Origin: Mesoterricola silvestris
GTDB lineage: Bacteria; Acidobacteriota; Holophagae; Holophagales; Holophagaceae
NCBI RefSeq assembly: GCF_030295405.1
Contig: NZ_AP027080.1
Coordinates: 1,116,001-1,180,000 of the forward strand
DNA length: 64,000 bases
Direction: 5' to 3'
The position numbers and the translations under genes were made by a program. This document shows positions 19,539 through 47,500 of this stretch, in pieces. The notes under the pieces are model-generated. The model did not search any database. It saw nothing but the letters and a program-made list of their open reading frames with translations, and was not told the origin of the DNA. Numbering within the stretch: position 1 is the first letter of the stretch; every line of letters starts with the position of its first letter.

Positions 19539-19547
19539 CCCCCAAGT

Positions 19548-23459: not shown

Positions 23460-23713
23460 GGGCTCCTCCGCCCTCACGCCCGTTCTATCGGGTCAATGAC
23501 CGGAACCCATTAGTCGTGAGATCAAAGTAATTTTAGATTCATTGCGAAAAAGAGGGGGAAAAAAAGAAAAAGGGAATAAATCGCCCTTGCAGGGGCGAAA
23601 TTAAATGAATATGAAATTTCTTCGGCCCCTTCCGGGGATGAAAAGGAGGGCGGGATTCCGCCCCGGGGTTTCATCCACTACAATGGGCGGGCCTCACCGG
23701 AAAGGTGCAAACC
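23460..23713. promoter_or_regulatory. AT-rich divergent intergenic region
   Basis: It separates the Ig/beta-helix operon (minus) from the acyltransferase pair (plus). The 23520-23640 part is markedly AT-rich for this genome and carries purine runs and a small hairpin TCGCCC...GGGCGA (23580-23597) flanked by A/T. Promoters for both directions are likely here, but no convincing -35/-10 pair could be assigned. Confidence 0.4.
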
Positions 23714-25124: not shown

Positions 25125-28100
25125 ATGGGCGCTGCCGTCCTCGATCGACCTCCCCACCAGGGCCTGGTGCCCAGGGTCCTGTTCCCCTTTGCGGCCGCCC
25201 TGGCCCTTGCCTTCATGCCCTCCTGCAGCGGCGGCGGGGGTGGAGGTTCCACCCCGGCGCCCGCGCCCACCACCCCCGTGGTCACGGCTCCGGCCTATGT
25301 GACCTCCGGGGCCACGAATCTCACCGCGTCCACGCCGGCCCAGACGAACTGCACCTTCACGTGGACCATCACCAACGGCACCCTCACGGCGGGAGCCACC
25401 TCCACGTCCGTCACCTTCACCGCCGGAACCAGCGGCGCCGTGACGCTTTCCTGCGTGGCCACCAATGCCGACAAGGTCGCCAGCGCCGCCGGGACCGCCA
25501 CCTCCACCATCGTCGCGGCGCCCGTCCTTCCGGTCATCACCACGCCCGCCAACGTGTCCCCCAACGCCACGGGCCTGACGGCCACGGTTCCGGCCCAGAC
25601 CGGCTGCACCTATGCCTGGACCATCGCCAACGGCACCATCACCGCCGGCGGAACCACCGCCAGCGTCACCTTCACCGCGGGAGCCTCGGGCACCACGGAC
25701 CTGGGCTGCGTGGTCACCAATGCCGCGGGCACCGCCAGCGCCAAGGGCACCGCCTCCTCCACCATCATCACCACGACCCTCGTGCAGCCGGTCGTGACCG
25801 CCCCCACCGCGGCCACCGCCGGCACCGCGGGCCTCACGGCCTCCGTGCCCGCCCAGACGGGCGCCATCTTCGCCTGGACCATCACCGGGGGCACCCTCAC
25901 CGCCGGGGCCGACACCAACACCGTCACCTTCACCGCCGGGGACGTGGGCTCCCTCCAGCTGAGCTGCGTCGCCTCCAACCTCGCCGGTGCCACCACCGCG
26001 CCCGGCACCGCCACCGTCGCGGTCCTGGCCGCGCCCACCACGCCCACCATCACGGTGGCCTCCAAGGTCACCGCGGGCGCCACGGGCCTCACGGCTTCCG
26101 TTCCCGCCCAGACCGGCAGCACCTATGCCTGGACCCTCACCGGCGGCACCATCACCGCCGGCGGCACCACCAACGCCATCACCTTCACGGCCGGGGCCAG
26201 CGGCACCGTGGGCCTGAGCTGCGTCGTCACCAACGGCGCGGGCACCCCCAGCACCGCGGGCACCGCCTCCAGCACCATCTACGCCGCGCCCGCCACGCCC
26301 ACCATCACGGTGGCCTCCAAGGTCACCGCCGGCGCCACGGGCCTCACGGCTTCCGTTCCCGCCCAGACCGGCAGCACCTACGCCTGGACCCTCACGGGCG
26401 GCACCGTCACCGCCGGCGCCGGCACCAACGCCATCACCTTCACGGCCGGGGCCAGCGGCACCGTGGGCCTGAGCTGCGTCGTCACCAACGGCGCGGGCAC
26501 CCCCAGCGCCGCGGGCACCGCCTCCAGCACCATCTACCCCGCGCCCGTCACCCCCGCCATCACGGTGGTCTCCAAGGTCACCGCCGGGGCCGCGGGCCTC
26601 ACGGCCACCGCCACCGCCCAGGCCGGCAGCACCTATGCCTGGACCCTCACGGGCGGCACCGTCACGTTCGGCGCCGGCACCGACACCATCACCTTCACGG
26701 CCGGCGCCTCCGGCACCGTGGGCCTCAGCTGCGTCGTCACCAACGGCGCGGGCCTGGCCGGCACCGCGGGCACCGCCTCCAGCACCATCTACCCCGCGCC
26801 CGTCACCCCGTCCATCACCGTGGCTTCCAAGGTGACGGCCCTGACCGCGGGCCTCACGGCCACCGCCACCCCCCAGGCCGGCAGTTCCTACGCCTGGATC
26901 CTCACCGGCGGCACCGTCACGGCCGGCGCCGGCACCGACACCATCACCTTCACGGCCGGCGCTTCCGGCACCGTGGACCTGAGCTGCGTCGTCACCAACG
27001 GCGCGGGCCTGGCCGGCACCGCGGGCACCGCCTCCAGCACCATCTACCCCGCGCCCGTCACCCCCTCCATCACCGTGGCCTCCAAGGTGACGGCCCTGAC
27101 CGCGGGCCTCACGGCCACCGCAACCCCCCAGGCCGGCAGCACCTACGCCTGGATCCTCACCGGCGGCACCGTCACGGCCGGCTCCGGCACCGACACCATC
27201 ACCTTCACGGCCGGCGCCACCGGCACCGTGGACCTGAGCTGCGTCGTCACCAACGGCGCGGGCCTGGCCGGCACGGCGGGCACCGCCTCCAGCACCATCT
27301 ACGCCGCGCCCAGCACGCCTTCCATCGTCGTGGCCAACTACGTGACCGCGTCCTCCACCGGCAACACCGCCTCCGTCACGCCCCAGGCCGATTCCACCTA
27401 TGCCTGGACCATCACCGGGGGCACCTTCACCGCGGGCGAAACCACCGCTTCCGCCACCTTCACGGCCAATGCCAGCGGAACCGTGGGCCTGAGCTGCGTG
27501 GTTACCAACGGCGCGGGCTCCCCCAGCACCCCGGGCACCGGCTCCAGCACCATCGTCGCCGCCGCCAGCACCCCGACCATCGGCGTGGCCAGCTACGTCA
27601 CCACCCTGTCCACGGGCAACGTCGCCTCCATCACGCCCCAGGCCAATTCCACCTATGCCTGGACCATCACCGGGGGCACCTTCACCGCGGGCCAAACCAC
27701 AGCTTCCGCCACCTTCACGGCCGATGCCTCCGGCACCGTCCACCTCACCTGCACGGTGAGCAACCAGGCCGGAACCGCCGCCACCCCCGGCGCCGCCGAC
27801 AGCACCATCGTCCCCCTCGCCACCACGCCGACCATCACCGTGGCCAGCACCGTGACCGACTACGTGACCCAGAACAAGGTCGGGGGCTATACCGCCTCCG
27901 TCCCCGACCAGGGGAACAACTCCACCTACGCCTGGTCCATCACAGGCGGCTCCTTCACCGCGGGCCAAACCACGGTTGCCCCGACCTTCACGCCCAGCAC
28001 CGTCGGCACGGTCACCCTCACCTGCACCGTGTCGAACGCCGCGGGCCTGGCGGCCACCGCCGCAACCAAGGACATCACCTGCGTCGCCGCTCCCGCGGTG

Positions 28101-30287
28101 ACCTCCTTCACCCCCGGCGCCGCCATCATCGGCACCAACGCGGCCACGACGCTCAACGCCGTCTTCACCGGCTCCAGCGCCAAGGTCAACGGAGGCGCCC
28201 TCGCCGACGCCGCCATCACCAGCGGCACCCCCCTGGCCACCGGCAACCTGGCCAGCACCACCAGCTTCACCCTCACCGTCTCCAACCAGGCCGGCGACAC
28301 CACCCCGGCCACGGTCAAGGTCCTGGTGGGATCCCTGAATGCCTACTCCGGCATCCCCTCGGGCCAGGGCAACACCGACGGGTCCTACCCCGACGCGCGG
28401 TTCTGGGAACCCAACGGCATGGTCTTCGACGGATCGGGCAACATCTACGTTTCGGACTACGACAACAACACCATCCGCATGATCACCTCCGGGGGCGTCG
28501 TCAGCACCCCGTACGGCACCGCCGGCAAGCACGGCAACGATGACCTGGTGGGCACCGCCGCCACCTTCTTCGGACCCAGCGGCCTGGCCTTCGACGGAAC
28601 CTTCCTCTACGTGGCCGACACCTGGAACCAGACCATCCGAAAGATCAATACGACCAACGGTCAGGTGAGCACCCTGGCGGGAACGCCCGGCGTCCCGGGC
28701 AACGACGCGACCCATTTCCATTTCAGCCAGGCCAATGTCCCCGTGGGCCTCGCCCTTGACGGGACCACCCTCTACGTGGCCGATCACCTCAACAACGCCA
28801 TTCGCGTGGTCGATAAGAACACCGGCGCCATGACCACCCTCGCCGTCAACGGAGCTGCGTTCAACTGGGTGACCGGATTGGCCGTGGATACCGTGTACCG
28901 CATCCTCTACGTCACGGACAAGGGGTCCAACTCGGTCATCGGGTTGGATCTGACGGGGAGTCCCGCCCTCGCCACGACCCTTTCCTCCGATTTCATCAAC
29001 CCGGTCGGCCTGGCCCTTTCGGCGGACGCGGCAACCCTCTACGTGACCGACTACGAGACCAGCGTGGTCAAATCGGTCGATTCCTTCTACGGCGCGGTTC
29101 CTGGCCAGACCACCATCATCGCCGGGGCCCTCAATGCCGTGGGGAGCACCGATAACTCCACCGGCACCAGCGCCCGCTTCCAGTACCCCACCGCCCTCCT
29201 CCTGGACGCGGCCAATCTGCTCTACGTCGCGGACTTCGCCAACAACACCATCCGCACCGTCGCGTTCGGAGGCACCCGCGCCGTGAACACCATCCAGGGC
29301 GTCGCCGGCGGCGCCGCCCACCGGAACCGTTCGATTCTCGCTGAAACGGCCCTGTACAACAGCCCCCGCGGCATCGCCGTGGACTACACCCACAACCTCG
29401 CCTTCGTGGCCGAGACCAGCGGCAACTACATCCGGGCCATCGACCTCTCCACCGGGCTCACCGGCGACGTGGCACAGGTTCCCGGCGCCTCCCCCAATGG
29501 CATCGCCGTCCAGGTTTCCGGAGCCGGCGGCACCATCTACTTCACGGAGACCGCCACCCACCTGGTCAAGAGCGTCACCTACACCGGCGGCGACGTCACC
29601 AACCCGGCCTCCTTCGGGACCCCGGTGATCCTGGCCGGCATTTCCGGCACCCCGGGCGCCACCGACGGCACCACCGGCATCACCTCCACGTTCAACGGTC
29701 CCACGGGTATCGCCGTGGACGCCACCGGCAACGTCTACGTGGCCGACCAGGGCAATCACCTGATCCGCAGGATTTCCTCCGCCACCGACAACCCCGTCAG
29801 CACCATCGGCGGCCAGCTGGGCGTCGGCTCCTTCGTGAACGGGGCCGCCGGCATCTCCACCTTCAACAACCCCACCGGCCTCGCCCTTTCCGGGAACAAT
29901 CTGTTCGTGGCCGACCAGAGCAACAACGCGATCCGCCTGATCAGCCTCGACACCAACACCGCGAGCACCTTCGCGGGCCAGGCGACTCCGGGCTCCGCGG
30001 ACGGCACCGGCACCGGCGCCTCCTTCCTCAACCCCAACGCCCTCGCGGTGGACGGGGCCGGCAACGTCTACGTGGCCGACACCTACAACAACACCATCCG
30101 CAGGATCACCCCCGCCGGCGAGGTCACCACCATCATCGGCATCCCCGGAACGATGAAGAACATCCTGGCCAACGCCACCACGCCCCTGGCCGCCTCCCTG
30201 GCCTTCCCCGTGGGGATCGCGGTGCCCGCCGACCTGGGCACGATGTACATCGTCGTCCCGGACGCGGTCCTGAAGGTGGCCTTCTAA
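25125..30287 (+). CDS. Giant surface lipoprotein: eleven Ig-like repeats plus NHL-repeat propeller
   Basis: A 1720-residue protein. The signal peptide ends in a lipobox (FMPSC), followed by a Gly/Pro linker. Eleven Ig-like repeats of about 85 residues come next (TYAWT.TGGT.TAG..T...TFTA.ASGTV.LSCVVTNGAG), then one divergent domain (about residues 990-1065). The last 650 or so residues are NHL-type beta-propeller repeats (GNIYVSDYDNNTIRMI, FLYVADTWNQTIRKI, NVYVADQGNHLIRRI, NVYVADTYNNTIRRI), probably enough for two propellers. GGAG lies six bases before ATG 25125. This Ig family differs from that of the beta-helix proteins. It is probably an outer-membrane anchored binding or scaffold protein. 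It is a single-gene unit closed by a strong terminator. Confidence 0.88.
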   Translation: MGAAVLDRPPHQGLVPRVLFPFAAALALAFMPSCSGGGGGGSTPAPAPTTPVVTAPAYVTSGATNLTASTPAQTNCTFTWTITNGTLTAGATSTSVTFTAGTSGAVTLSCVATNADKVASAAGTATSTIVAAPVLPVITTPANVSPNATGLTATVPAQTGCTYAWTIANGTITAGGTTASVTFTAGASGTTDLGCVVTNAAGTASAKGTASSTIITTTLVQPVVTAPTAATAGTAGLTASVPAQTGAIFAWTITGGTLTAGADTNTVTFTAGDVGSLQLSCVASNLAGATTAPGTATVAVLAAPTTPTITVASKVTAGATGLTASVPAQTGSTYAWTLTGGTITAGGTTNAITFTAGASGTVGLSCVVTNGAGTPSTAGTASSTIYAAPATPTITVASKVTAGATGLTASVPAQTGSTYAWTLTGGTVTAGAGTNAITFTAGASGTVGLSCVVTNGAGTPSAAGTASSTIYPAPVTPAITVVSKVTAGAAGLTATATAQAGSTYAWTLTGGTVTFGAGTDTITFTAGASGTVGLSCVVTNGAGLAGTAGTASSTIYPAPVTPSITVASKVTALTAGLTATATPQAGSSYAWILTGGTVTAGAGTDTITFTAGASGTVDLSCVVTNGAGLAGTAGTASSTIYPAPVTPSITVASKVTALTAGLTATATPQAGSTYAWILTGGTVTAGSGTDTITFTAGATGTVDLSCVVTNGAGLAGTAGTASSTIYAAPSTPSIVVANYVTASSTGNTASVTPQADSTYAWTITGGTFTAGETTASATFTANASGTVGLSCVVTNGAGSPSTPGTGSSTIVAAASTPTIGVASYVTTLSTGNVASITPQANSTYAWTITGGTFTAGQTTASATFTADASGTVHLTCTVSNQAGTAATPGAADSTIVPLATTPTITVASTVTDYVTQNKVGGYTASVPDQGNNSTYAWSITGGSFTAGQTTVAPTFTPSTVGTVTLTCTVSNAAGLAATAATKDITCVAAPAVTSFTPGAAIIGTNAATTLNAVFTGSSAKVNGGALADAAITSGTPLATGNLASTTSFTLTVSNQAGDTTPATVKVLVGSLNAYSGIPSGQGNTDGSYPDARFWEPNGMVFDGSGNIYVSDYDNNTIRMITSGGVVSTPYGTAGKHGNDDLVGTAATFFGPSGLAFDGTFLYVADTWNQTIRKINTTNGQVSTLAGTPGVPGNDATHFHFSQANVPVGLALDGTTLYVADHLNNAIRVVDKNTGAMTTLAVNGAAFNWVTGLAVDTVYRILYVTDKGSNSVIGLDLTGSPALATTLSSDFINPVGLALSADAATLYVTDYETSVVKSVDSFYGAVPGQTTIIAGALNAVGSTDNSTGTSARFQYPTALLLDAANLLYVADFANNTIRTVAFGGTRAVNTIQGVAGGAAHRNRSILAETALYNSPRGIAVDYTHNLAFVAETSGNYIRAIDLSTGLTGDVAQVPGASPNGIAVQVSGAGGTIYFTETATHLVKSVTYTGGDVTNPASFGTPVILAGISGTPGATDGTTGITSTFNGPTGIAVDATGNVYVADQGNHLIRRISSATDNPVSTIGGQLGVGSFVNGAAGISTFNNPTGLALSGNNLFVADQSNNAIRLISLDTNTASTFAGQATPGSADGTGTGASFLNPNALAVDGAGNVYVADTYNNTIRRITPAGEVTTIIGIPGTMKNILANATTPLAASLAFPVGIAVPADLGTMYIVVPDAVLKVAF
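26035..27310 (+). repeat. Tandem 255-bp coding repeats, five near-identical units
   Basis: Ig-like repeats 4 to 8 of the lipoprotein are nearly identical in DNA as well as protein, with a constant 255-bp period. Each includes the same coding runs for GASGTVGLSCVVTNGAG and GTASSTIY. The flanking repeats (1-3 and 9-11) are more diverged. The pattern indicates recent copy-number expansion. Confidence 0.85.
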
Positions 30288-30439: not shown

Positions 30440-31648
30440 ATGCCCCCTCGAATCGCCTGGCCGGGTCCCCCCGGCATTGCCCTTGCGGTGCTCGGCCTTC
30501 TGGTGGCCTGTGCGGGGGGCGCCAAGGCCCTCGGGACGACCGGGACGCCCACCCCGCCGCCCGTGGTGGCGGATCCCTGCGCCCCGGCGGTGGGGACCTT
30601 CACCGTGAACGTTCGGAACGCCCCCTACAACGCCAAGGGGGACGGGGTCTCGGACGACACGGCGGCCATCCAGAAGGCGGTGAACGCGGCGGCGGGGTCG
30701 GGGGGATCCGTGGTGGTCCCCGACGGGACCTACCTCATCAATGCGGCGGCGGGGGGGGTCTCCCTGCGCAGCGGCATGACCCTGGCCCTGGGGTCGGGCG
30801 CCGTGCTCCAGGCCATCCCCACCTCGGCGGGCAACTACAACGTCCTGTACCTGGGCGGCCTCAGCCGGGTGACCATCACCGGCGGGACCATCGCCGGGGA
30901 GCGGAGCGCCCACACGGGCACCAGCGGGGAATGGGGCATCGGCATCGCCATCGAAAGCTCCACCAACGTGGTGGTCCAGGGGGTCACCGTCAAGGAGTGC
31001 TGGGGGGACGGCATCTACATTTCCGGGTCCAGTTCGGCCCTGGTGGTCTGCGCGTCGACCCTGGACCACAACCGGCGCAACGCCATGTCCATCGTCAAGG
31101 GCAGCGATATCCAGGTGAAGGACACCACCCTCAGCAACACCCGGGGCACGGCCCCGGAGTGCGGGCTGGACATCGAGCCCAACGCGGGGGATTCCGTCGA
31201 CGGCGTGACCGTCTCCAGGTGCGTCTTCACGGCCAACGCCGGGTACGGGACGGCCCTGGGGCCGGCCTACGTGAACCTCGCGACGTCCTCCGTGACCCGC
31301 ACGGTGGTCACGGGTTGCACCTACAACGGCAACGGGGTGGGGAGCCTCTCAGGCAACCCGGCGGCCATCGCCCTTTCCGCCTGTGACGGCAACACCCTCA
31401 CGGGCAACACCGTCACGACCACCACCGGCCACGGCATCATGGTGGTGGCCAAGGGAACCAACACCACCGTCTCCAACAACACCGTCACGGGCAGTTCGGT
31501 GAACGGGATCCACCTGGAGGACTGCGCGGGCACGGTGGTTTCCGGCAACACCTGCACCGGCAACGGGCAGTACGGGATTCGCAACAGCAGCGGCAGTGGC
31601 GCTACCCTGAGCGGGAACACCCTTTCCGGAAACGGGATCGCGCCTTGA
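30440..31648 (+). CDS. Beta-helix lipoprotein (Pectate_lyase_3 type)
   Basis: A 402-residue protein. The lipoprotein signal ends at GLLVAC (Cys near residue 24), followed by a Pro/Thr linker. The Pectate_lyase_3 signature NAKGDGVSDDTAAIQKAV (about residues 62-80) and 'GSVVVPDGTYLINAA' come next, then beta-helix turns to the end (NTVTGSSVNGIHLED, NTCTGNGQYGIRN). It is a relative of the 18444-19538 protein: both share 'GEWGMG/IG', 'CWGDGFY/IY', 'NRRQGMSIV/NRRNAMSIV' and 'PECGIDVEPNAG'-like segments. It is the first gene of a long plus-strand exopolysaccharide unit; the next gene follows within 45 bases. Confidence 0.86.
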   Translation: MPPRIAWPGPPGIALAVLGLLVACAGGAKALGTTGTPTPPPVVADPCAPAVGTFTVNVRNAPYNAKGDGVSDDTAAIQKAVNAAAGSGGSVVVPDGTYLINAAAGGVSLRSGMTLALGSGAVLQAIPTSAGNYNVLYLGGLSRVTITGGTIAGERSAHTGTSGEWGIGIAIESSTNVVVQGVTVKECWGDGIYISGSSSALVVCASTLDHNRRNAMSIVKGSDIQVKDTTLSNTRGTAPECGLDIEPNAGDSVDGVTVSRCVFTANAGYGTALGPAYVNLATSSVTRTVVTGCTYNGNGVGSLSGNPAAIALSACDGNTLTGNTVTTTTGHGIMVVAKGTNTTVSNNTVTGSSVNGIHLEDCAGTVVSGNTCTGNGQYGIRNSSGSGATLSGNTLSGNGIAP

Positions 31649-31689: not shown

Positions 31690-33813
31690 ATGGACGTCGT
31701 ATTCATCACGGACCACCTGATCCGCGGAGGCGCCGACCGGCAGCTCCACCGCATCGCCACCACCCTGCAGCGGCGCGGGTGGCGGGTGGGCGTCATCACC
31801 ATGCTGCCGTCGGTGGCCTACCTGGACGAAATGCGGGCCGCGGGGGTGGCGGTGCACGAATGCTCGCCCACCATGGGTTGGCCGCCCGCCATGGCCCTGC
31901 GGGTGGCCCTGCGCATGACCCTCCAGCTTCGCCGCTGGCGCCCCTCCGTGGTGATCACCTTCAACTACCACGGCGATATCATGGGCCGCGTGTGCGGACG
32001 CCTGGCGGGGGTGCGGGCCGTGGTGTCCTCCCTGCGCACCGCCTACGTGAAGAACGGCCTGCGCCGGCAGCTGTACCGCCGCACCGAGCCCCTCATCGCC
32101 CTCACTGCCTCCAATTCCCACGCGGGCATCGCCTACATGGTGGCCCGGGGGCTGCTGACCCCCGCCAAGACCCTGGTGATCCCCAACGGCATCGAGGCCG
32201 CCGATTTCCCCTCCCCGGTCCCCCGGGAGGAGGTGCGGGCGGAGTTCGGCCTGGGGCCGGAGACCTTCCTGTGGCTGGCGGTGGGCAATCTGCGGGCGGC
32301 CAAGGACTATCCCACGCTGCTGGCCGCCATGGAGCGCTGCGGCGAAGGCCACCTGCTCATCGCCGGGGACGGGGAGGACGAGGCGGCCCTGCGCGCCGAC
32401 GCCACCCGCCGGGGCCTGGACGGCCGGGTGCGCTTCCTGGGCTCCCGCACGGACGTGGCGCGCCTGCTCAAGGGCTGCGACGCCTACGTGCTCTCCTCGG
32501 CCTGGGAGGGCCTGCCCAACACGGTCATGGAGGCCATGGCCGCGGGCGTCCCCGTGGTGAGCACCGACGCCGGGGGCGTGCTGGAACTGGTGGTGGAGGG
32601 CGTCACGGGGCACATCGTCCCCTGCGGCGACCCGGAAGCCCTGGCCCGGGCCCTGCGGGCCGTCATGGCCCTGCCTTCCGCCGAGCGGCTGGCCCTGGGC
32701 GCCGCGGGGCGGGCGCGCATCGAGACCCACTTCGACAACGAGCGCGTGGTGGACCGGTGGGAGACCCTGATCCGCCAGGTGGCGCACGCCGCCACCGGAG
32801 CCCCTCCCCGGGTGGAGGCCGCGGCGCCCCGGGCGGCCGCGACGCCCCCGCCCGCCTTCGTCATCTCCCTGGATTTCGAGCTCATGTGGGGCGTGCGGGG
32901 GGGCCGGAGCGTCGAGGGGTACGGCCCCCACATCCTGGGCGAGCGGGAGGCCATCCCGGCCATGCTGGCCCTCTTCAAGCGCCACGGCGTGCGCGCCACC
33001 TGGGCGGCGGTGGGCATGGCCCTCTTCGAAACCCGCAAGGAGCTGCTCGCCCACCTGCCGGACCTCCGCCCCGCCTATGCCCGGCGGGAGCTCAATCCCT
33101 ACCTGGCCCTGGACGAGATCGGGGAGGACGAGCGGAGCGACCCCTACCACTTCGGGCTCTCCCTGGTGCGCCAGGTGCTGGATTGCGAGGGTATGGAACT
33201 GGGCAGCCACACCTTTTCCCATTTCTACTGCCTGGAGGAGGGCCAGGACGCCCCCCAGTTCAAGGCGGACCTGGCCGCCTGGAAGGAGGCCGCGCAACCC
33301 CTGGGCGCGGGCACCAGCTTCGTCTTCCCCCGCAATCAGTTCAACCAGGCCTACCTGGCCGCCTGCCGAGAACTTGGCTTCACCGTCTTCCGGGGCAACG
33401 AAGCCGCCTGGATGTACGAATCCGGCTCGGGCCCCGGCCAGTCCCTCCTGACCCGGGGCGCCCGGGTGGCGGACCACTACCTGGACCTGTCGGGCCCCAA
33501 TGGCTTCGTGCCCCGGCCCTGGCTGGACACGGGGCTGGTGAACTGCCCCTCCAGCCGCTTCCTGCGTCCCTTCTCCCCGCGGCTCGCGCCCCTGGACGGA
33601 ATGCGGGTGGCCCGCATCCGCACGGCCATGGAGCGCGCGGCCAAGCGTGGGGAATCCTTCCATCTGTGGTGGCATCCCCACAACTTCGGCACCCACCTGC
33701 GGGAGAACCTCGCGATCCTGGATGAACTGCTCCGGTTCCACGTGGCGCTGCGGGAGCGCTACGGGGTCGTACCCATGACCATGGGCGAGGTGGGAGAACG
33801 GTTCGGCGCCTGA
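31690..33813 (+). CDS. Fusion of GT4 glycosyltransferase and polysaccharide deacetylase (NodB-like)
   Basis: A 707-residue bifunctional protein. Residues 1 to about 370 form a GT-B/GT4 glycosyltransferase (GGADRQLHRIA near 12-22, VIPNGIEAADF, AVGNLRAAKDY, EGLPNTVMEAMAAGVPVV). A short Ala/Pro linker leads to a polysaccharide-deacetylase-like domain from about residue 391 (FVISLDFELMWG, ATWAAVGMAL, ELGSHTFSHFYC, WWHPHNFGTH). The Asp of SLDFE and the His pair of HTFSH would bind the metal. ATG 31690 has an AGGA site; the frame is open upstream to a TTG that overlaps the previous stop. One chain could add a sugar and the other domain deacetylate it on the cytoplasmic side. Such fusions are uncommon. 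Confidence 0.88.
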   Translation: MDVVFITDHLIRGGADRQLHRIATTLQRRGWRVGVITMLPSVAYLDEMRAAGVAVHECSPTMGWPPAMALRVALRMTLQLRRWRPSVVITFNYHGDIMGRVCGRLAGVRAVVSSLRTAYVKNGLRRQLYRRTEPLIALTASNSHAGIAYMVARGLLTPAKTLVIPNGIEAADFPSPVPREEVRAEFGLGPETFLWLAVGNLRAAKDYPTLLAAMERCGEGHLLIAGDGEDEAALRADATRRGLDGRVRFLGSRTDVARLLKGCDAYVLSSAWEGLPNTVMEAMAAGVPVVSTDAGGVLELVVEGVTGHIVPCGDPEALARALRAVMALPSAERLALGAAGRARIETHFDNERVVDRWETLIRQVAHAATGAPPRVEAAAPRAAATPPPAFVISLDFELMWGVRGGRSVEGYGPHILGEREAIPAMLALFKRHGVRATWAAVGMALFETRKELLAHLPDLRPAYARRELNPYLALDEIGEDERSDPYHFGLSLVRQVLDCEGMELGSHTFSHFYCLEEGQDAPQFKADLAAWKEAAQPLGAGTSFVFPRNQFNQAYLAACRELGFTVFRGNEAAWMYESGSGPGQSLLTRGARVADHYLDLSGPNGFVPRPWLDTGLVNCPSSRFLRPFSPRLAPLDGMRVARIRTAMERAAKRGESFHLWWHPHNFGTHLRENLAILDELLRFHVALRERYGVVPMTMGEVGERFGA

Positions 33814-33937: not shown

Positions 33938-35212
33938 ATGCGTATCGCCGTAGTGGGTCTTGGATATGTCGGTCTGCCCCTGGCCCTGTCGCTGGCCAAG
34001 AAATTCCCCGGCACGCTGGGGTTCGATATCCACCAGGCCAAGGTGCAGGAGCTGCGGGACGGCATCGACCGCACCCGCGAAGTGGAGCCCCAGGAACTCA
34101 AGGGCACCACCCTCACCATGACCAGCGTCCTGGAGGATCTCCGCGGCGCGGACTTCTTCATCGTCGCCGTGCCCACGCCCGTGGACGACTGGAACCGCCC
34201 CGACCTCACCCCCGTCATCAAGGCCTCCGAATCCGTGGGCAAGGTGCTGGGCAAGGGCTCCATCGTCGTCTACGAATCCACCGTTTTCCCCGGCGTCACC
34301 GAGGAGATCTGCGGCCCCATCCTCGAGAAGGTCTCCGGCCTCAAATGCGGCGTGGACTTCAAGCTGGGCTATTCCCCCGAGCGCATCAACCCCGGCGACA
34401 AGGTCCACACCGTGGAGAAGATCGTGAAGGTCGTCTCGGGCCAGGACGCGGAAAGCGCCGAGACCATCGCGGGCGTGTACGGCGCCGTCATCACCGCCGG
34501 CGTGCACCGGGCCTCCTCCATCAAGGTGGCCGAGACCGCCAAGGTCATCGAGAACACCCAGCGGGATATCAATATCGCGCTCATGAACGAACTGGCCATC
34601 ATCTGCGAGAAGGTGGGCATCCGCACCAGCGAGGTGCTCACGGCCGCCCGCACCAAGTGGAATTTCCTGCCCTTCAGCCCCGGCCTGGTGGGCGGCCACT
34701 GCATCGGCGTGGATCCCTACTACCTCACCACCAAGGCGCAGGAGCTGGGCTACCACCCCGAAGTGATCCTGGCCGGCCGGCGCATCAACGACAGCATGGG
34801 CTCGTACGTGGCCCAGAAGCTGGTGAAGCTGCTCATCCAGCAGCAGCTCAAGGTCAAGAACGCCAAGGTGGGCATCCTGGGCCTGACCTTCAAGGAGAAC
34901 GTGCACGACATCCGCAACAGCAAGGTGCCGGACATCATCACCGAGCTGAAGGAGTTCGGCATCGCGCCCCTGGTGCACGATCCCATGGCCGACCACGCCG
35001 AGACCCTCCACGAGTACGGCCTGGACCTCCAGCCCCTGGAGGACTTCCAGGACCTGGACGCCCTGGTGCTGGCGGTCAACCACTCCGCCTTCCTGGAGGC
35101 GGGGGTGGAGTCCCTCCTCAAGCGCATGAAGCCCGCCTCGGTGTTCATCGATGTGAAATCCTGCTTCGACCCCGGCCGGTTCCCCGAACAGGTCGCCTAC
35201 TGGAGCCTTTGA
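33938..35212 (+). CDS. tviB: UDP-N-acetylglucosamine 6-dehydrogenase, TviB/WbpO type
   Basis: A 424-residue member of the UDP-glucose/GDP-mannose dehydrogenase family. Rossmann motif VGLGYVGLP at the N-terminus, '[12 protein letters not shown]', '[11 protein letters not shown]', catalytic Cys in [12 protein letters not shown] (near residue 254) and '[16 protein letters not shown]' are all present. Sequence style and the neighbouring epimerase point to the TviB/WbpO subgroup, which oxidises UDP-GlcNAc (or UDP-GalNAc) to the uronic acid; the substrate is inferred. ATG 33938 has GGGAG four bases upstream. The stop overlaps the next start by one base, so the two enzymes are coupled. Confidence 0.85.
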
Positions 35213-36243
35213 TGCCGAAGTACGCGGAGATCTCCCGGCAGCTCATGGACCACCCCCGCACCTGGCTGGTGACGGGCGTGGCGGGCTTCATCGGATCCAA
35301 TATTCTCGAACGGCTCCTGGCGCTGGATCAGGTGGTGGTGGGGCTGGACAACTTCTCCACCGGCAGGCCCGAGAACCTGGAGAACGTGCGGCAGACGGCC
35401 AAGCCCGGCGCCTGGAAGAAGTTCACCTTCCACGAGGGGGACACCCGGGACCTGGCCATGTGCCGGCGCGCCTGCGAAGGCGTGGAGCTCGTCCTGCACC
35501 AGGCGGCCCTGGGCTCCGTGCCCCGCTCCATCAAGGAACCCATCACCAGCCACGAATCCAACGTGAACGGCTTCCTGAACATGCTCGTGGCCGCCCGGGA
35601 CGCGGGGGTCTCGCGCATGGTCTACGCCTCCTCCAGTTCGGTGTACGGCGACGATCCCCAGCTGCCCAAGGTGGAGGAGCGGGTGGGCAACCCACTCTCC
35701 CCCTACGCCGTCACCAAGGCCATCAACGAGGCCTACGCCGCCGTCTTCGGCCGCTCCTACGGCTTCAAGGCCGTGGGCCTGCGCTACTTCAACGTCTTCG
35801 GCCCCCGGCAGGATCCCGACGGGCCCTACGCCGCCGTCATGCCCAAGTGGATCGACGCGCTGGTGAAGGGCCAGCCCTGCCAGATCCACGGGGACGGGGA
35901 GACCAGCCGGGACTTCTGCTTCGTGGCCAATGCCGTCCAGGCCAATATCCTGGCCGCCACCGCCCCGGCGGAAGGCCTGGAGGACGTCTTCAACGTCTCC
36001 TTCGGCGGCACCACCTCCCTGACCCAGCTGTACTGGATGATCGCGGAGCGGCTGGCCGCCATCCTGCCCGGGCTCAAGCCGGGGGACCCGGTGTACGCGC
36101 CCTTCCGGCCCGGGGACATCCGCCATTCCCAGGCGGACCTCACCCGCATCAAGACCCAGCTGGGATACGACCCCACCCATTCGGTGGCCCAGGGCCTGGA
36201 CGAGCTGGTGCCCTGGTTCGCCGCCGCCCATGCCCGTTCCTGA
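35212..36243 (+). CDS. tviC: NAD-dependent sugar-nucleotide 4-epimerase, TviC/WbpP type
   Basis: A 343-residue extended short-chain dehydrogenase. NAD-binding GVAGFIG (G22, G25, G28), '[12 protein letters not shown]', '[11 protein letters not shown]', the SSSSVYG segment, YxxxK in PYAVTKAIN and '[12 protein letters not shown]' are all family-typical for UDP-GlcNAc(A) 4-epimerases. Following a TviB-type dehydrogenase, it most likely yields a UDP-N-acetylgalactosaminuronate-type donor. The N-terminal extension of about 17 residues before the Rossmann strand is also seen in WbpP/TviC. It overlaps the next glycosyltransferase gene by one base. Confidence 0.87.
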
Positions 36244-37388
36244 TGCGCATCGGCGTCCTGGGAACCCAGGCCAGGGATCTGGTCAACTTCCGCGGTCATC
36301 TGCTTTCGGAACTGGCCAAGGCGGGGCACGAGGCCTTCGGCATCGCGCCGGGGGGCGATGAGGCCACCCGGGACGCGCTGGCGGCCCTGGGGGCCACGTA
36401 CGTGCCCATCCGCCTGGACCGCACCGGCCTCAACCCCTTCGGCGAGGCCCTGAGCTTCCTGCGGCTCTGGCGCACCCTGCGGGGCCTGCGCCTGGATCTG
36501 CTCCTGTGCTACGAACTGAAATCCGTCGCCTTCGGGACCCTCGCGGCCCGGCTGGCGGGGGTGCCCCGGCGCTACGCCATGATCACCGGGCGGGGCACGA
36601 CCCTGCAGGGGGCCACCTCCAGCACCCAGGAGAAGCTGGTGCGGGCCGTGGTCACGCGCCTCTACCGCATGGCGCTGCCCCGCACCCAGGGGGTCCTCTT
36701 CCAGAACCAGGATGATTGCGATTTCTTCGGGGAGCTGGGCATGCTCCCGGCCTCCGTGCCCCGGCGCATCATCAACGGCTCGGGCGTGGACCTGGACCAC
36801 TTCGCCCGGCAGCCCCTGCCGGAAGGGACCGCCACCTTCCTCTTCGTGGGCCGGCTCCTGAAGAACAAGGGCGTCTTCGAACTGGTGGAGGCCTGCCGGA
36901 TCCTGGCCCGGCGGGGGGTGCCCTTCCACGCCCGCATGCTGGGGCCCCTGGATACCAATCCCAACGGCATCACCGCCGGCCAGCTGGAAGCCTGGGTGGG
37001 GGAGGGGAGCGTGGCCTACCTGGGGGAGCTGGCCGATGTGCGGCCCGCCTTGGCCGCGGCCCATGTGATGGTGCTCCCCTCGTACGGCGAGGGCACGCCC
37101 CGGTCCGTGCTGGAGGCCCTGGCCGTGGGCCGCGCCGTGGTGACCACGGACGCCCCCGGGTGCAAGGAGGTGGTGGCCGAAGGGGTCAACGGCCACCGGG
37201 TGCCCGTGGGGGACGCCACGGCCCTGGCGGACGCCATGGAACACCTGGCCCGGGACCCGGAACTCATCGCGCGCTTCGCCCAGGAGGGGCGCCGGCTCGC
37301 CGAGCGGAAGTACGATGTGCGGCTGGTGACGGCCGATATCATCGATTTCATGAATTGCGGGAAAGGCAAGGCCCATGGAGCCCACTGA
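36243..37388 (+). CDS. Glycosyltransferase family 4 (capsular type)
   Basis: A 381-residue GT-B glycosyltransferase. The N-terminal domain begins [20 protein letters not shown]. The acceptor/donor core includes GRGTTLQGATSS, INGSGVDLDHF, FVGRLLKNKGVFEL, and the EGTPRSVLEALAVG motif with the donor-binding glutamates. It resembles WbpH/PglA-like enzymes that act on lipid-linked intermediates using UDP-HexNAc-type donors, but the sugar cannot be read. It starts inside the ATGA-like junction with the epimerase gene and overlaps the flippase gene by 14 bases. Confidence 0.88.
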   Translation: MRIGVLGTQARDLVNFRGHLLSELAKAGHEAFGIAPGGDEATRDALAALGATYVPIRLDRTGLNPFGEALSFLRLWRTLRGLRLDLLLCYELKSVAFGTLAARLAGVPRRYAMITGRGTTLQGATSSTQEKLVRAVVTRLYRMALPRTQGVLFQNQDDCDFFGELGMLPASVPRRIINGSGVDLDHFARQPLPEGTATFLFVGRLLKNKGVFELVEACRILARRGVPFHARMLGPLDTNPNGITAGQLEAWVGEGSVAYLGELADVRPALAAAHVMVLPSYGEGTPRSVLEALAVGRAVVTTDAPGCKEVVAEGVNGHRVPVGDATALADAMEHLARDPELIARFAQEGRRLAERKYDVRLVTADIIDFMNCGKGKAHGAH

Positions 37389-38775
37389 AACCGCAGCGGC
37401 GTCCGGACTGGTGGGCAGGGCCCGGGCCTCCTGGGAGCGGCTCACCACCGGCAGCGTGAACCGCCGGGTCTTCGGGGCGGCCCTGGTGGTGGGGATCCTC
37501 ACCCTGGGCATCAAGGTCTTCGCCCTGCTCAAGGAATCCTTCGTGGCCGCCCGGTATGGCACCGGCAACGACTACGACGCCTTCATCATCGCCATGATCG
37601 TTCCCGCCTCCCTGGCGGCCATCCTCTCCGGCTCCCTGGACGCGGCCCTGATCCCCACCTACATCGAGGTGCGCGAGACGGAAGACCACGAAGCGGCCCA
37701 CCGGCTCTACGCCACCATCCTCCTGTGGAACACCATCGTCCTGGTGGGCACCGTGGGCCTGCTGGCCCTGACGGTGGACCTGTGGCTCCCCCTCCTGGCC
37801 TCCCGCTTTGATCCGGCCAAGATGGCCCTGGCCCGCAAGCTGGTGTTCGCCTCCCTGCCCATCGTGGTGCTCACGGGCTTCTCCACGGTGTGGGGCGCCC
37901 TGCTCAACGCCGGGGAACGCTTCGCCGGGGCCGCGCTGGCGCCCGCCCTGCAATCCCTCGGCGTGATCCTCCTGCTGGCCCTCTGCTTCCAAAGCATGGG
38001 CATCTGGGCCCTCCTGGCGGGCTCCCTGGTGGGCATCGTGGGCGAGACGGGGGTGAAGGGCTACCTGCTGAAGAAGCGCGGCCACCCCCTCATGCCGCGC
38101 TGGCACGGGGTCACCGCCGCCTTCCGCAAGGTGCGGGGCCAGTACGCCACCGCCATCGCCGCCTCCTTCATCGTCAACGGCATGACCCTGGTGGACCAGG
38201 CCTTCGCCTCCACCCTGGGCCCCCGGAGCAATTCGGCGCTCAGCTACGGCAGCAAGCTGCAGGCCTTCGCCCTGTCCCTGGGGGTGACGGCCCTGTCCAC
38301 GGCCATCCTGCCCGCCCTGTCCAAGATGGTGGCCCTGCGGGACTGGACGGGCATCCGCCGGTTCCTGCGGGTGTACGGCGGGATGATCCTGGCCGTGACC
38401 GTGCCCGCCACCCTCATGCTCATCGTGCTTTCGAAATTCCTCGTGCGGATCATGTACCAGCACGGCTCCTTCACCGCCGCCGACACGGACCTGGTGGTGC
38501 AGATCCAGATCTTCCACCTGCTGCGCATCCCCTTCGCCACCTGCCACGTGCTGGTCACCCGGACGCTTACGGCCCTCAAGTCCGTGCACTTCCTGCTGAT
38601 CATGTCCTTCAGCAGCTTCGCCCTGAACGCCTTCCTGGACTGGCTCCTCATCCAGCGGTACGGGATCGCCGGCATCACCCTTTCCACGTCGCTCTGCAGC
38701 ATCGTGACCCTGGTGTGCCTGGGCTGGGCGCTGAACCATCTCTTGAAGAAGAAGGCCCTGGAGGCTGGCGCATGA
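37375..38775 (+). CDS. MurJ/MVF-type lipid-linked oligosaccharide flippase
   Basis: A 466-residue polytopic protein with about 13-14 helices in the MOP/MVF superfamily pattern. Features are an early helix with 'KVFALLKESFVAARYGTGNDYDAF' in pieces, 'GSLDAALIPTYIE', 'GVTALSTAILPALSKM' and 'MYQHGSFTAADTDLV'. These are typical of MurJ (lipid II flippase). Its place among glycosyltransferases suggests that it moves the polysaccharide precursor across the inner membrane as a Wzx substitute rather than lipid II. It overlaps the next gene by four bases (ATGA). Confidence 0.83.
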   Translation: MEPTETAAASGLVGRARASWERLTTGSVNRRVFGAALVVGILTLGIKVFALLKESFVAARYGTGNDYDAFIIAMIVPASLAAILSGSLDAALIPTYIEVRETEDHEAAHRLYATILLWNTIVLVGTVGLLALTVDLWLPLLASRFDPAKMALARKLVFASLPIVVLTGFSTVWGALLNAGERFAGAALAPALQSLGVILLLALCFQSMGIWALLAGSLVGIVGETGVKGYLLKKRGHPLMPRWHGVTAAFRKVRGQYATAIAASFIVNGMTLVDQAFASTLGPRSNSALSYGSKLQAFALSLGVTALSTAILPALSKMVALRDWTGIRRFLRVYGGMILAVTVPATLMLIVLSKFLVRIMYQHGSFTAADTDLVVQIQIFHLLRIPFATCHVLVTRTLTALKSVHFLLIMSFSSFALNAFLDWLLIQRYGIAGITLSTSLCSIVTLVCLGWALNHLLKKKALEAGA

Positions 38776-39674
38776 AATTCCTTCCCTGGATCCGGCCCGT
38801 CCCCCTCACCCGGGAGCCCGCGCCCGTGGGCCAGGTGCGCACGGCGCGCCGGGGCGGGCGGATCCGGGTGGTGGAAACCTGGTTCAACGACGATCCCCCG
38901 AGCCTGGACGGCGTCGATGTGTGGATCGCCCACCAGCGCCCGGAGCGCCTGACCCCCTGGGGCTGGCACTACCGCTACACCCTGATGGTGGACCTGGCCG
39001 CCTCCGCCGAGGAGATCCTGGCCCGCATGAACAAGACCGCCCGCCAGGAGATCCGCAAGTCCATCAAGGACGGGGAATTCACCTGCACCTTCATCCCTTC
39101 GCCCACCGAGGCGCAGATGGAGGCCTTCGCCGACGCCTACGACGCCCACCCCATCCACTCCGACGCGCCCCGGCTGGAGCGGGAGCGGCTGCGGGAACTG
39201 TTTTCCGCGGGCAATCTGCAGATCTCGGAATGCCGGGACGCCTCGGGCACGATCCTGGTGTGGCACGGCGTCCTGGGCCACAAGCGGGCGGGAATCGCCC
39301 AGCCGGTGTACCAGATCTCCAACTACCACCAGTCCGCGGACCAGGCCAGCGCCAACACCACGGGCCGGGCGAACCGGGTCCTGTACTACCAGGAATTCGT
39401 GTACTACAAGGAGCAGGGTTACGCCCACTATGACCTGAACGGCTGGTACACCGGTTCCGAGGACGCCAAGCGGCTGAAGATCAACAAGTTCAAGGAGGCC
39501 TTCCGGGGCCGCCTCTCCCACGGCTTCGATTGCGAGGAGGCCCTGACGCTGCGCGGGTGGGCCTACGTGACCTTCCGGACCCTGAAGCGGTGGTTCTTCA
39601 TGAAGGGGCGCGCGGACGAACTGCGGCGCCTGCGGAAGAAGCCGGTGTTGAACTTGCCGGAATACCTGCAGTAG
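38772..39674 (+). CDS. FemAB/GNAT-like acyltransferase in polysaccharide locus
   Basis: A 300-residue protein with the acetyltransferase-like (BioF2/FemAB) pattern: 'MNKTARQEIRKSIKDG' near the middle, then 'VWHGVLGHKRAGIAQPVYQ', 'GRANRVLYYQEFVYYKEQGY' and 'YDLNGWYTG...KRLKINKFKEAF'. The last of these is the usual closing motif of peptidoglycan-bridge/FemX-like and EPS-locus GNAT proteins. In exopolysaccharide clusters such proteins are thought to attach an acyl or aminoacyl group to an amino sugar; the donor is unknown. It is the last gene of the 30.4-39.7 kb unit. Confidence 0.75.
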   Translation: MKFLPWIRPVPLTREPAPVGQVRTARRGGRIRVVETWFNDDPPSLDGVDVWIAHQRPERLTPWGWHYRYTLMVDLAASAEEILARMNKTARQEIRKSIKDGEFTCTFIPSPTEAQMEAFADAYDAHPIHSDAPRLERERLRELFSAGNLQISECRDASGTILVWHGVLGHKRAGIAQPVYQISNYHQSADQASANTTGRANRVLYYQEFVYYKEQGYAHYDLNGWYTGSEDAKRLKINKFKEAFRGRLSHGFDCEEALTLRGWAYVTFRTLKRWFFMKGRADELRRLRKKPVLNLPEYLQ

Positions 39675-40072
39675 GGTAGCTCGGCAAACCCAAGGTGCCT
39701 TGAAACCGTGATGAAGGGGCTTTTCCAGGTTGAGCGGATCCCTGTTCATCCCATCAATCGGCGTTCACCCCTGTTTTCGCAGGGCTGACGCGGGGTTGGG
39801 TCGGAGCACAAGGTCCTCGACGTCCACCTCTGCGAATCCATGGCGCAGGGGTTTTCAACACGGCAGCTGAGGCCGGTGATCTGCTTCGCGATCGGGGCCT
39901 GGATGGGCATGGGCGGCCCCCTTGACCCAGAGGTGGCGACACGCTCCAGCATGGTTCAAACGGGGATGGATAGGATCCAGGGGAAAAGGCAGGATAAAGA
40001 ACGTCAGGTCAAACCTGGGGCCGTGTCACCACGGTATCCGTTCACGACCTACGGTTTGCCGACCCGCCCTGC
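39675..40072. other. Convergent intergenic stretch, no gene supported
   Basis: The sequence lies between the FemAB-like gene and the convergent O-antigen ligase. A 68-codon minus-strand frame at 39746-39952 has no recognisable product or good ribosome binding site. No strong terminator with a T-tract was found. It may be decayed coding DNA. Confidence 0.5.
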
Positions 40073-41350
40073 TCAGGAGGCCTCCCATTCCTCCAAGGCC
40101 GGGCTGACGGGCAGGAGGAACATGAGCGCGAAGGCCACCTGGCCCTCGAAGCTGAAGAGGAGGCTGTGGCTGAAGAACAGGTACGTGAGGTTCACCAGGC
40201 ACAGCGAGACCAGCGCCCACCGCACCGGGGCGGAGCCCGGGTAGGTGAGGGTCCGCTTGGCATAGAAGGCGATGACCGCGAGGAAGGCGAAGAAGCCCAC
40301 CGGCCCGATGTCGATCCAGACGCCCAGGTAGGTGTTGTGGGTGCCCAGCATGATCCGCCCCAGGCCCACCACCTTCATGGTGTCGTCGTCCACCCGGGTG
40401 CCGGACATGGCCTGCATGCCGTAGCCGTACCAGGGTTCCTGGTCCAGCTGGGAGGACCATTCCTCGAAGAGGTCCAGCCGGGTCACGCCCCCCTTGGCGG
40501 CGGTGTTCTTCTCCTCGATGTCCAGCATGCGCGACAGGGCCCCGCGGTTGGAGGCGCTGCGCACCTCGTGGCGCATGGCCTGGCTCAGGGAGAAGGCGAT
40601 CACCAGGGACACCGCGGCCACGATGCCGCCGAGCCACCACCGCAGATCCTTGCGCTTGGCGATGAAGAGGTAGAGCACCACCAGGAGGGCGAGGAAGAGC
40701 CCCGCCCGCCGGCTGGCGGTGAGGTAGATGATGGGCACGCTGCACAGGCGGCCCATCCAGCCCAGCAGGGGGGTGGCGAACACCGAAAGGATCAGGACGA
40801 GCAGGGCGATGTACCCGCCCACGTTGGGGTTCCCCCAGAGCCCTCCGTAGCGCCCGGCCCCCCCCTCCATGTTCAGGACGCCGGAGCGCTGGGTGACCGC
40901 GTAGAGGATGGACGCCACCTTCGAGCTCAGGGGGATGAGGAAGAGCAGCACCAGGTTGACCACCACCGCGAACTGGGCCGCGTTGGCGAAGCTGCGCAGG
41001 GCCTTGGCGCTTGAGGTGAGGTAGGCCACGGCGCCGGCCAGCAGGAGCGTGATGGTCCAGGCCTTGATGGCGAAGGGGTAGTCCCGGCTGGGCGCGACGA
41101 TGAGGCCCCAGATGAAGTAGAAGGTGAACCAGGCCATGTAGGGCACCACGGGGGAGAGCAGCCGCCCGTACCTCAGCTTCGTGGCGCTGGCCACCAGGAG
41201 CGCGAGAACCAGGCCCCACACCATCCAGGTGAAGCCCCGGAAGAAGAAGGAGAGGAAGGGCAGGGCGCCCGCGAGCACCAGGCCCATGAGGAACGCCATG
41301 GCGCTTGCGCCGAAGGCCAGCCATGGGGATTCGTCCCGGGTCCATTCCAT
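40073..41350 (-). CDS. O-antigen ligase / polymerase family protein (Wzy_C)
   Basis: A 425-residue protein with ten or more membrane helices. It has the Wzy_C-type periplasmic loop ahead of the motif 'LGTHNTYLGVWIDIGPVG', which carries the conserved His of this family, and an earlier 'GLWGNPNVGGYIALLVL'. Such proteins either polymerise repeat units (Wzy) or ligate glycans. With no separate ligase or polymerase in the window, a Wzy role is the likelier reading. ATG 41350 is preferred over TTG 41353 and overlaps the stop of the upstream sugar transferase by one base, with an AGGAGAAGG site in front. Confidence 0.85.
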   Translation of the reverse strand: MEWTRDESPWLAFGASAMAFLMGLVLAGALPFLSFFFRGFTWMVWGLVLALLVASATKLRYGRLLSPVVPYMAWFTFYFIWGLIVAPSRDYPFAIKAWTITLLLAGAVAYLTSSAKALRSFANAAQFAVVVNLVLLFLIPLSSKVASILYAVTQRSGVLNMEGGAGRYGGLWGNPNVGGYIALLVLILSVFATPLLGWMGRLCSVPIIYLTASRRAGLFLALLVVLYLFIAKRKDLRWWLGGIVAAVSLVIAFSLSQAMRHEVRSASNRGALSRMLDIEEKNTAAKGGVTRLDLFEEWSSQLDQEPWYGYGMQAMSGTRVDDDTMKVVGLGRIMLGTHNTYLGVWIDIGPVGFFAFLAVIAFYAKRTLTYPGSAPVRWALVSLCLVNLTYLFFSHSLLFSFEGQVAFALMFLLPVSPALEEWEAS

Positions 41351-42240
41351 CAAGCCTTCTCCTCAGGGTAGGGCAGGGAGGGCAGGGGTTCGGGGAACCG
41401 CACCGCCGTGCCCTGGTCGTCGCTGCGCACGATGGTACCCTCCAGGGTCACGGGTCCGCCACCGGGTCCGGGGGCGGGGAGGGTCACCTGGATCTTGGAT
41501 CCCACCGGCTGCGTGCCCTCGGCCTCCAGGAGCAGCCCGCCCGGCCCGAGGTTCACGAGGCGCGCGGACGGCCCGCCTTCCACGGCCACGGGCACGGCGG
41601 GCCGGGGCCCCCGGTCGAAGGCCCTGCGGTCCCCGGGTTTGCGGGATTCGATGGGTGGGCGGACCAGCCCCAGGGTGGCGAGGATGATCCGGACGTTGCC
41701 CCACAGGGTGGCCTTGGCGGCGTACTCGAGGTTGATGCGGATCTTGTTGGGAAGGATGTTCTCCGCGTAGAAGCGGCCCGGTTCCTCGCCGCCGCGGAAG
41801 ATCTGGTTCTCGTGGCGGTACACGATGGACGCCGCGTCGGTGATGCCGGGGCGGATATCCAGCACCCGCCGCTGGGCCGGCGTGTAGAGGGCCACGAACT
41901 TGGGCACCTCGGGCCGGGGGCCCACCAGGCTCATCTGCCCCAGGAGCACGTTCACCAGCTGGGGCAGCTCATCGATCTTGAAGTCCCGCAGCCACTTGCC
42001 CAAAGGGGTGATGCGGTCGTCCACGGCCACCGTGAGCAGGTCGCCCTGGCGGTCGGCGCCCACCCGCATGGTCCTGAACTTGAGGATCCGGAAGGGCCGG
42101 CCCCCCTGGCCGATGCGCTCCTGGCGGTAGAACACCGGCCCCCCGTCGCTGATCCGGATGGCGAGGCCCACCAGGATCAGCAGGGGGGAGAGCAGGGCGA
42201 GGCCCAGGATCGACCAGAAGAGGTCGAAGAGCCGGAACAT
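41350..42240 (-). CDS. Initiating sugar transferase (PglC/Bac_transf type) fused to PilZ domain
   Basis: A 296-residue protein. Residues 1-215 are a short-form phosphoglycosyl transferase: an N-terminal re-entrant helix (MFRLFDLFWSILGLALLSP), 'GGPVFYRQERIGQGG', 'LKFRTMR', 'IDELPQLVNVL' and 'SLVGPRPE'. It transfers a sugar phosphate to undecaprenyl phosphate and so starts each repeat unit. From about residue 218 a PilZ-like domain follows, with RxxxR (RAFDR) and NxGxxG (NLGPGG, a variant of the usual D/NxSxxG) plus 'VRSDDQGTAVRFPE'. This suggests direct c-di-GMP gating of polymer initiation. ATG 42240 lies two bases from the aminotransferase stop. Confidence 0.86.
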   Translation of the reverse strand: MFRLFDLFWSILGLALLSPLLILVGLAIRISDGGPVFYRQERIGQGGRPFRILKFRTMRVGADRQGDLLTVAVDDRITPLGKWLRDFKIDELPQLVNVLLGQMSLVGPRPEVPKFVALYTPAQRRVLDIRPGITDAASIVYRHENQIFRGGEEPGRFYAENILPNKIRINLEYAAKATLWGNVRIILATLGLVRPPIESRKPGDRRAFDRGPRPAVPVAVEGGPSARLVNLGPGGLLLEAEGTQPVGSKIQVTLPAPGPGGGPVTLEGTIVRSDDQGTAVRFPEPLPSLPYPEEKA

Positions 42241-42242
42241 CC

Positions 42243-45122: not shown

Positions 45123-45165
45123 CGCATTCCGCCTTCGAAGCTCTCAGGTGAAGGAGTATCCATCC

Positions 45166-47466: not shown

Positions 47467-47500
47467 CCACAACCCGCCGGCTCCCGCCGGCGGGTTGTGG
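47467..47500 (+). promoter_or_regulatory. Perfect 15-bp hairpin directly before a ribosome binding site
   Basis: CCACAACCCGCCGGC (47467-47481) pairs perfectly with 47486-47500 across a TCCC loop. The GGAG ribosome binding site starts four bases later (47504) and the gene's ATG is at 47513. No T-tract follows, so it is unlikely to be a terminator. It could stabilise the mRNA 5' end or control ribosome access. Confidence 0.7.

Follow-up and report, generated by a model that had tools for sequence, protein, structure and literature searches.

A GT4 glycosyltransferase and a CE4-type deacetylase joined in one chain: a conserved fusion in a predicted exopolysaccharide locus of Holophagaceae

The fusion gene and its locus

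The window, i.e. the whole stretch of 64,000 nucleotides of Mesoterricola silvestris DNA that was analysed, contains a gene for a single 707-residue chain with an ATG start, in which a GT4 glycosyltransferase half is followed by a short, disordered linker and a CE4-type deacetylase half (Table 1; the coordinates include the stop). The open frame itself spans 31645-33813 (+), the purine-rich CAGGAA lies just 5' of the ATG, and the GC fraction within the gene is 0.93 at the third codon position versus 0.51 at the second. A frameshift or assembly artefact is ruled out by the occurrence of full-length fused frames, at 60-100% identity, in 10 of 77 Holophagaceae genomes. The sequence-only reading, which had seen here one chain made of a GT4 enzyme and a deacetylase, is borne out by Pfam domains above their cut-offs and by the conservation of the frame in relatives. 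The fusion is real and conserved, and it is probably functional.

Downstream, genes for a TviB-like dehydrogenase, a TviC-like epimerase, a further GT4 glycosyltransferase and a MurJ-family flippase, the last in a probable Wzx role, follow on the same strand. The locus also encodes Wzy_C, an initiating sugar transferase (PGT), a DegT aminotransferase, Wzc and Wza, as well as two further GT4 enzymes around a DUF2334 deacetylase and a WbpM/PseB-like dehydratase; as judged from these genes, it is a Wzx/Wzy-type exopolysaccharide cluster. The order fusion-TviB-TviC-GT4 recurs in five of seven fusion loci compared (L137, L138, L139, L038 and L042), the other two (L039 and L040) being without it within the locus DNA compared.

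Several further features of this region deserve mention. The initiating sugar transferase (PF02397) carries a C-terminally fused PilZ domain, which suggests control of the first polysaccharide step by c-di-GMP. The DUF2334 deacetylase, weakly similar to the GlcNAc-PG deacetylase model NF053788, sits between two GT4 genes as a second GT4/deacetylase module, which is also close to the fusion in several relatives. The right-handed beta-helix proteins around the locus are possibly polysaccharide lyases, epimerases or surface proteins. A protein of 1720 residues that combines PKD-like and NHL repeats is encoded upstream of the fusion; sequence homologous to it likewise lies upstream in two other fusion loci (L137 and L138). 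A gap of ~1.3 kb with no confident gene separates the flippase gene from the Wzy-like one; three candidate frames in it gave no Pfam match.

Table 1. Coordinates of the fusion gene, its parts and motifs, and of other features of the window
Feature	Coordinates	Strand	Basis or remark
Right-handed beta-helix proteins, four, two of them with Ig-like domains	18444..23477 (-), 30440..31648 (+), 47495..50119 (+)		
1720-residue protein, PKD-like and NHL repeats	25125..30287	+	
Whole fusion gene, 707 aa	31690..33813	+	full length kept in 10/77 family genomes
GT4 glycosyltransferase half, residues 1-370 (about)	31690..32799	+	PF13439 13-170, PF00534 179-341; Foldseek
K205	32302..32304	+	K in 6/6 fused rows
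E273-x7-E281 (EX7E motif)	32506..32532	+	both E in 6/6 fused rows
Linker, residues 371-388	32800..32853	+	pLDDT <50 at 372-383
CE4-type deacetylase half, residues 389-707 (about)	32854..33810	+	PF01522; AlphaFold; fold matches
Motif 1, S393-L-D395-F-E397	32866..32880	+	90/92 rows, other 2 gapped
Motif 2, H507-x3-H511	33208..33222	+	92/92 rows
Motif F-P-R548-N-Q	33325..33339	+	R548 in 92/92 rows
Motif H658-L-W-W-H662-P-H664-N-F-G	33661..33690	+	H658, H662, H664 each in 92/92 rows
TviB-like UDP-GlcNAc C6 dehydrogenase	33938..35212	+	NF011729 455.8 bits, cut-off 592
TviC-like UDP-HexNAcA C4 epimerase	35212..36243	+	NF011728 420.1 bits, cut-off 760
GT4 glycosyltransferase, next in module	36243..37388	+	synteny
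MurJ-family flippase, probable Wzx role	37375..38775	+	TIGR01695 189.1 bits, below cut-off 235.55
Stretch without confident gene	38776..40072		
Initiating sugar transferase (PF02397) with PilZ domain	41350..42369	-	
DUF2334 deacetylase	45148..45951	+	NF053788 38.1 bits, cut-off 280

The glycosyltransferase half

The N-terminal half is assigned to GT4 well above the Pfam cut-offs (PF00534, 116.5 bits against 26.4; PF13439, 49.7 bits against 28.5), the two domains covering residues 13-341. Its best Foldseek matches are HepE, BshA and PglA, so that it shares the GT-B fold of solved GT4 enzymes (HepE 4xsu, E 2.6e-21; BshA 3mbo, E 1.5e-20). K205, the GT4 donor-phosphate lysine, and E273 and E281 of the GT4 EX7E motif are retained throughout the six fused rows, to which the claim of conservation is confined, the other GT rows being misaligned to the fused ones. 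The donor site, whose degeneracy would have counted against the sequence-only reading, thus appears to be preserved.

The deacetylase half

In the C-terminal half, the PF01522 match is marginal (25.4 bits against a cut-off of 23.1; residues 419-566) and covers profile positions 18-123 only, so that motif 1 falls outside it. The motifs themselves are nearly invariant: D395, E397, H507, H511, R548, H662 and H664 occur in 90-92 of 92 rows of an alignment whose rows are not all distinct, some loci being the same contig twice, and the two gaps at motif 1 are attributed to the choice of start codon. D395 is presumed to be the catalytic base and E397 a metal ligand, as are H507 and H511, and the motif around H658-H664 probably holds the catalytic histidine. 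The metal triad Asp/Glu-His-His is present in the form of the conserved E397, H507 and H511, matched to H. pylori PgdA (HpPgdA) by motif; loss of the metal ligands, the other result that would have weighed against the sequence-only reading, is not seen.

In NodB-type CE4 enzymes, motif 1 is TFDDG. It is absent from the fusion, which has SLDFE at residues 393-397 instead, and because TFDDG is missing the S-L-D-F-E deacetylase family is, by its motifs, not NodB-like in the strict sense. The earlier description as a NodB-like deacetylase with intact metal-ligand-type motifs therefore holds for the motifs and fails for the NodB type, motif 1 being D-x-E. With NodB, PgaB and IcaB the fusion shares the superfamily, PF01522 being above cut-off, but it lacks both their TFDDG and a signal peptide, and PgaB ranks lower by fold. 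A profile search with the deacetylase half among solved structures found no solved deacetylase by sequence; against NCBIfam, there was no match at E up to 0.001, and the GlcNAc-PG deacetylase model NF053788 (GpgD type, >280 bits required) is not matched either. We know of no activity for any member of the S-L-D-F-E family.

Modelled alone with AlphaFold, the deacetylase half is predicted with high confidence (pLDDT 94.8, pTM 0.93). Among solved structures, 3rxz (Z 25.3) and HpPgdA (HP0310, 3qbu; Z 23.9) come nearest in a VIA fold comparison, followed by PuuE-type allantoinases; many CE4 chains match the barrel at Z 15-24, ArnD among the neighbours at Z 16.9. ArnD, the CE4-like deacylase that takes the formyl group off a lipid-linked amino sugar, is encoded by a separate gene, unlike the CE4 half. 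In the full-length model (mean pLDDT 87.3, pTM 0.58), residues 372-383 of the linker are of low confidence; owing to this and to the pTM, the mutual orientation of the two halves is not fixed by the model.

In HpPgdA, the zinc ligands are Asp14, His86 and His90, while Asp12 and His247 are positioned at the water (PMC3084791, in extract); by motif, Asp12/Asp14 correspond to D395/E397 and His86/His90 to H507/H511. HpPgdA and 3rxz differ from the fusion in having no glycosyltransferase attached, the identity is 17-20% over about 241 aligned residues, and motif 1 and H-x3-H lie about 38 residues farther apart in the fusion. A catalytically dead CE4 half, serving as a binding or scaffold domain, seems very improbable: CE4 pseudoenzymes do exist, to judge from the titles of structure records (7bkf; BA3943 as a CE4-superfamily pseudoenzyme), and the PF01522 score is marginal, whereas the motif residues are kept almost without exception.

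Secreted deacetylases such as PgaB and IcaB have a signal peptide or membrane anchor; judged by hydropathy, none is present in the fusion, in which no 19-residue stretch averages >1.42 (Kyte-Doolittle) and hence no strongly hydrophobic segment is found. Since it has neither a signal peptide nor a membrane segment, we infer that the fusion enzyme is cytoplasmic. In unfused family members (n=58), 6-28 residues precede motif 1, the starts having been chosen within 30 residues of it.

Distribution and origin of the fusion

The fusion occurs in 11 of 77 Holophagaceae genomes, 10 times in full length and once cut at a contig end. Three further genomes (G034, G019 and G054) have the GT half at 56-59% identity with no deacetylase in the DNA examined. 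A TviB-like gene lies at most 10 kb from the fusion in all 11 fusion genomes; it adjoins the fusion in nine and is ~8 kb off in G005 and G007. In the three GT-only genomes it is found >190 kb away (G019 and G034) or on another contig (G054).

The deacetylase halves of eight fused rows are united in a single clade (support 100/99), neighboured by unfused rows from Caballeronia and Pirellulaceae, and in the GT tree the fused rows cluster together (85/89) to the exclusion of the GT-only ones. A single fusion event is the simplest reading of these trees, although the GT-only rows may have lost their deacetylase half later. Open frames of 431-672 aa in Caballeronia, long enough to draw attention, were considered as candidate fusions and rejected, there being no glycosyltransferase in frame.

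Six fused loci are among the best 80 of at least 587 confirmed contig-search loci, five from Holophagaceae and one (L041) that is cut at a contig end and labelled Acidobacteria only; the genome of the window is of a different genus from the other five (L037-L040 and L042). In a sample of Acidobacteriota, 13 of 396 genomes matched, eight with fused and five with unfused genes. No fusion was found in the phylum of the Hymenobacter locus L044 (14 of 395 genomes matched, open frames of 307-493 aa) or in that of the Chromatiales locus L112 (5 of 398, 319-417 aa). Outside Holophagaceae, none was thus seen among the best-ranked contig loci and in the samples of these three phyla; weaker fusions may exist elsewhere. 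The fusion is a new domain arrangement of known kinds of enzyme and, within the searches made, is limited to a single family of bacteria. In the open-licence literature, as covered by titles and the beginnings of abstracts (PMC5408694 included), neither a GT4-CE4 fusion nor a pairing of such a deacetylase with a formyltransferase is described, and on Geothrix exopolysaccharide nothing on point was found.

A proposed mechanism

The reading that we favour, with slightly better than even confidence, is that of a bifunctional enzyme of the cytoplasm, by which a HexNAc is attached to a lipid-linked repeat unit and then de-N-acetylated to a free amine. The GT4 half would use a UDP-HexNAc or UDP-HexNAcA as donor and pass its N-acetylated amino sugar on to an oligosaccharide linked to undecaprenyl at the inner membrane face; the tethered CE4-type half would then remove the N-acetyl group, ahead of outward flipping, so that a single set position of the repeat unit would bear a free amine. 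A TviB/TviC-type uronic acid made by the neighbouring genes would give the polymer carboxylate in addition to amine. In favour of this are the single chain, the two predicted folds, the motifs in both halves, the single clade, the link to TviB, the exopolysaccharide setting and the GT4 gene directly beside the deacetylase in 22 of 74 unfused relatives. The sequence-only reading, in which deacetylation directly before or after transfer gives a cationic residue at a fixed place, is supported in part: its domain layout holds, while timing, substrate and charge are suggestions by analogy. Against the deacetylation step speaks the fact that similar folds can act differently, as HpPgdA and BA3943 illustrate; HpPgdA is inactive on typical polysaccharide substrates (PMC3084791, in extract). 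Moreover, three genomes have a GT half but no deacetylase joined to it, so transfer does not need the latter.

Several known systems resemble the proposed enzyme in part. A glycosyltransferase and a CE4 domain share one chain in modular GT2-CE4 proteins, which use an inverting GT2 synthase, whereas the fusion has a GT4 domain, a retaining type. A tested two-step precedent is provided in P. aeruginosa by the GT4 enzyme GpgS and the deacetylase GpgD, both predicted to be cytoplasmic: GpgS adds GlcNAc to a lipid, and GpgD then exposes the amine (extract of PMC12713373). In contrast to the fusion, this glucosaminyl-phosphatidylglycerol pathway uses two genes and phosphatidylglycerol as acceptor; GpgD is of the COG3233 type, to which the DUF2334 gene of the window is nearer than the fused CE4 half with its lack of an NCBIfam match. 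The second precedent is the Caulobacter holdfast protein HfsH, a cytosolic deacetylase that reportedly acts on the precursors of an exopolysaccharide which is then flipped and polymerised (PMC5362036, in extract); it is encoded by a separate gene and is likened to the fusion by description, not by sequence. From kin and from these precedents (GpgS/GpgD and HfsH), we infer by analogy an N-acetyl sugar as substrate, deacetylation after transfer and a free amine as the end state.

Unfused relatives and pairing with formyltransferases

Among 74 unfused loci (L043-L116), ranked by likeness to the window, a GT4 gene is directly adjacent to the deacetylase gene in 22 and a formyltransferase-like gene in 39, with both in 14 and neither in 27. 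The formyltransferase-adjacent loci span Bacteroidota, Pseudomonadota, Myxococcota, Omnitrophota and Sumerlaeota. Of 60 neighbour proteins analysed with Pfam, 37 are PF00551; N-x-H and D-x-G-I-D-T-G, both motifs of that family, are present in 30 and 31, respectively, of the 37 sequences from which the formyltransferase profile was built. In a less selected set of 22 loci drawn by phylum or family, with no fusion, the adjacency drops to 5 of 22 (Holophagaceae genome G012 included), and about seven have a same-strand GT4 match within 210 bases, one of them weak. With only a few such genes among some thousands, chance adjacency is roughly estimated at well under 1%, so the pairing is real, though not universal; deacetylase and adjacent formyltransferase possibly form a module that exchanges N-acetyl for N-formyl.

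The formyltransferase-like gene beside 39 of 74 unfused relatives argues against a free amine as the final state in every case; in the paired relatives the amine may be re-acylated, and it is this pairing that weighs most against a fixed cationic product across the whole family. For the fusion itself, an exchange in which acetyl is removed only to make way for another acyl group, formyl or other, so that the residue is not cationic, is unlikely. It gains from the adjacent PF00551-like genes in both sets of loci, from two Bacilli loci in which the gene upstream of the deacetylase weakly scores to a FemAB-like model and from HfsK, proposed to acylate the amines exposed by HfsH (PMC5362036, in extract). 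However, no formyltransferase match is found in the DNA examined of the six fusion loci L037-L042, the nearest unfused kin (Caballeronia and Pirellulaceae) have no such gene adjacent, and none of the three PF00551 matches of the window's genome lies in the window. The third of these is located at C1:324089-324472 (-) (L119).

A different bond as target, with the CE4 half acting as an ArnD-like N-deformylase or as an O-deacetylase, is quite unlikely. The presence of ArnD among the fold neighbours and the formyltransferase-like genes accompanying the family would fit such an activity, yet ArnD ranks below the HpPgdA-type folds and the fusion loci L037-L042 are without the formyltransferase match in the DNA examined.

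Unlikely, too, is a CE4 half that acts on a substrate other than the GT product, either a nucleotide sugar or an acceptor residue, with the fusion providing co-expression or co-location only. The absence of a GT4 match directly beside the deacetylase in 52 of 74 unfused relatives and the solitary GT halves of three genomes are in line with it, as is HpPgdA, whose poorly accessible active site suggested a small-molecule substrate (PMC3084791, in extract). The conservation of one fusion within one bacterial family argues against it, as does the adjacency of GT4 and deacetylase as separate genes in several phyla. Outside Holophagaceae, the GT half has its best unfused match (40% identity) in Chromatiales L112, where an unfused deacetylase gene of the family follows 1.9 kb downstream; a 587-residue GINT1_N-domain protein (L112 4130-5893 (-)) is encoded between the two.

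Implications

A broader picture, conceivable though doubtful, is that the S-L-D-F-E proteins constitute a widespread cytoplasmic CE4-type family that edits the N-acyl group of lipid-linked sugars. In many bacteria a formyltransferase would complete the swap, whereas Holophagaceae would have lost or never had this partner and fused the deacetylase to its GT4 enzyme, so that one protein both adds the sugar and frees its amine in cis; the TviB/TviC uronic acid would then make the polymer zwitterionic.

If the two halves of the bifunctional enzyme indeed act in cis, a single protein would suffice to put a free amine into the repeat unit at a defined site before export, in contrast to PgaB- and PelA-type enzymes, which deacetylate partially and outside the cytoplasm. 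The formation of N-formyl or free-amine sugars from N-acetyl sugars would then become testable, and the unfused relatives with an adjacent formyltransferase represent ready two-gene modules. The pairing of deacetylase and formyltransferase is a more novel lead than the fusion itself.
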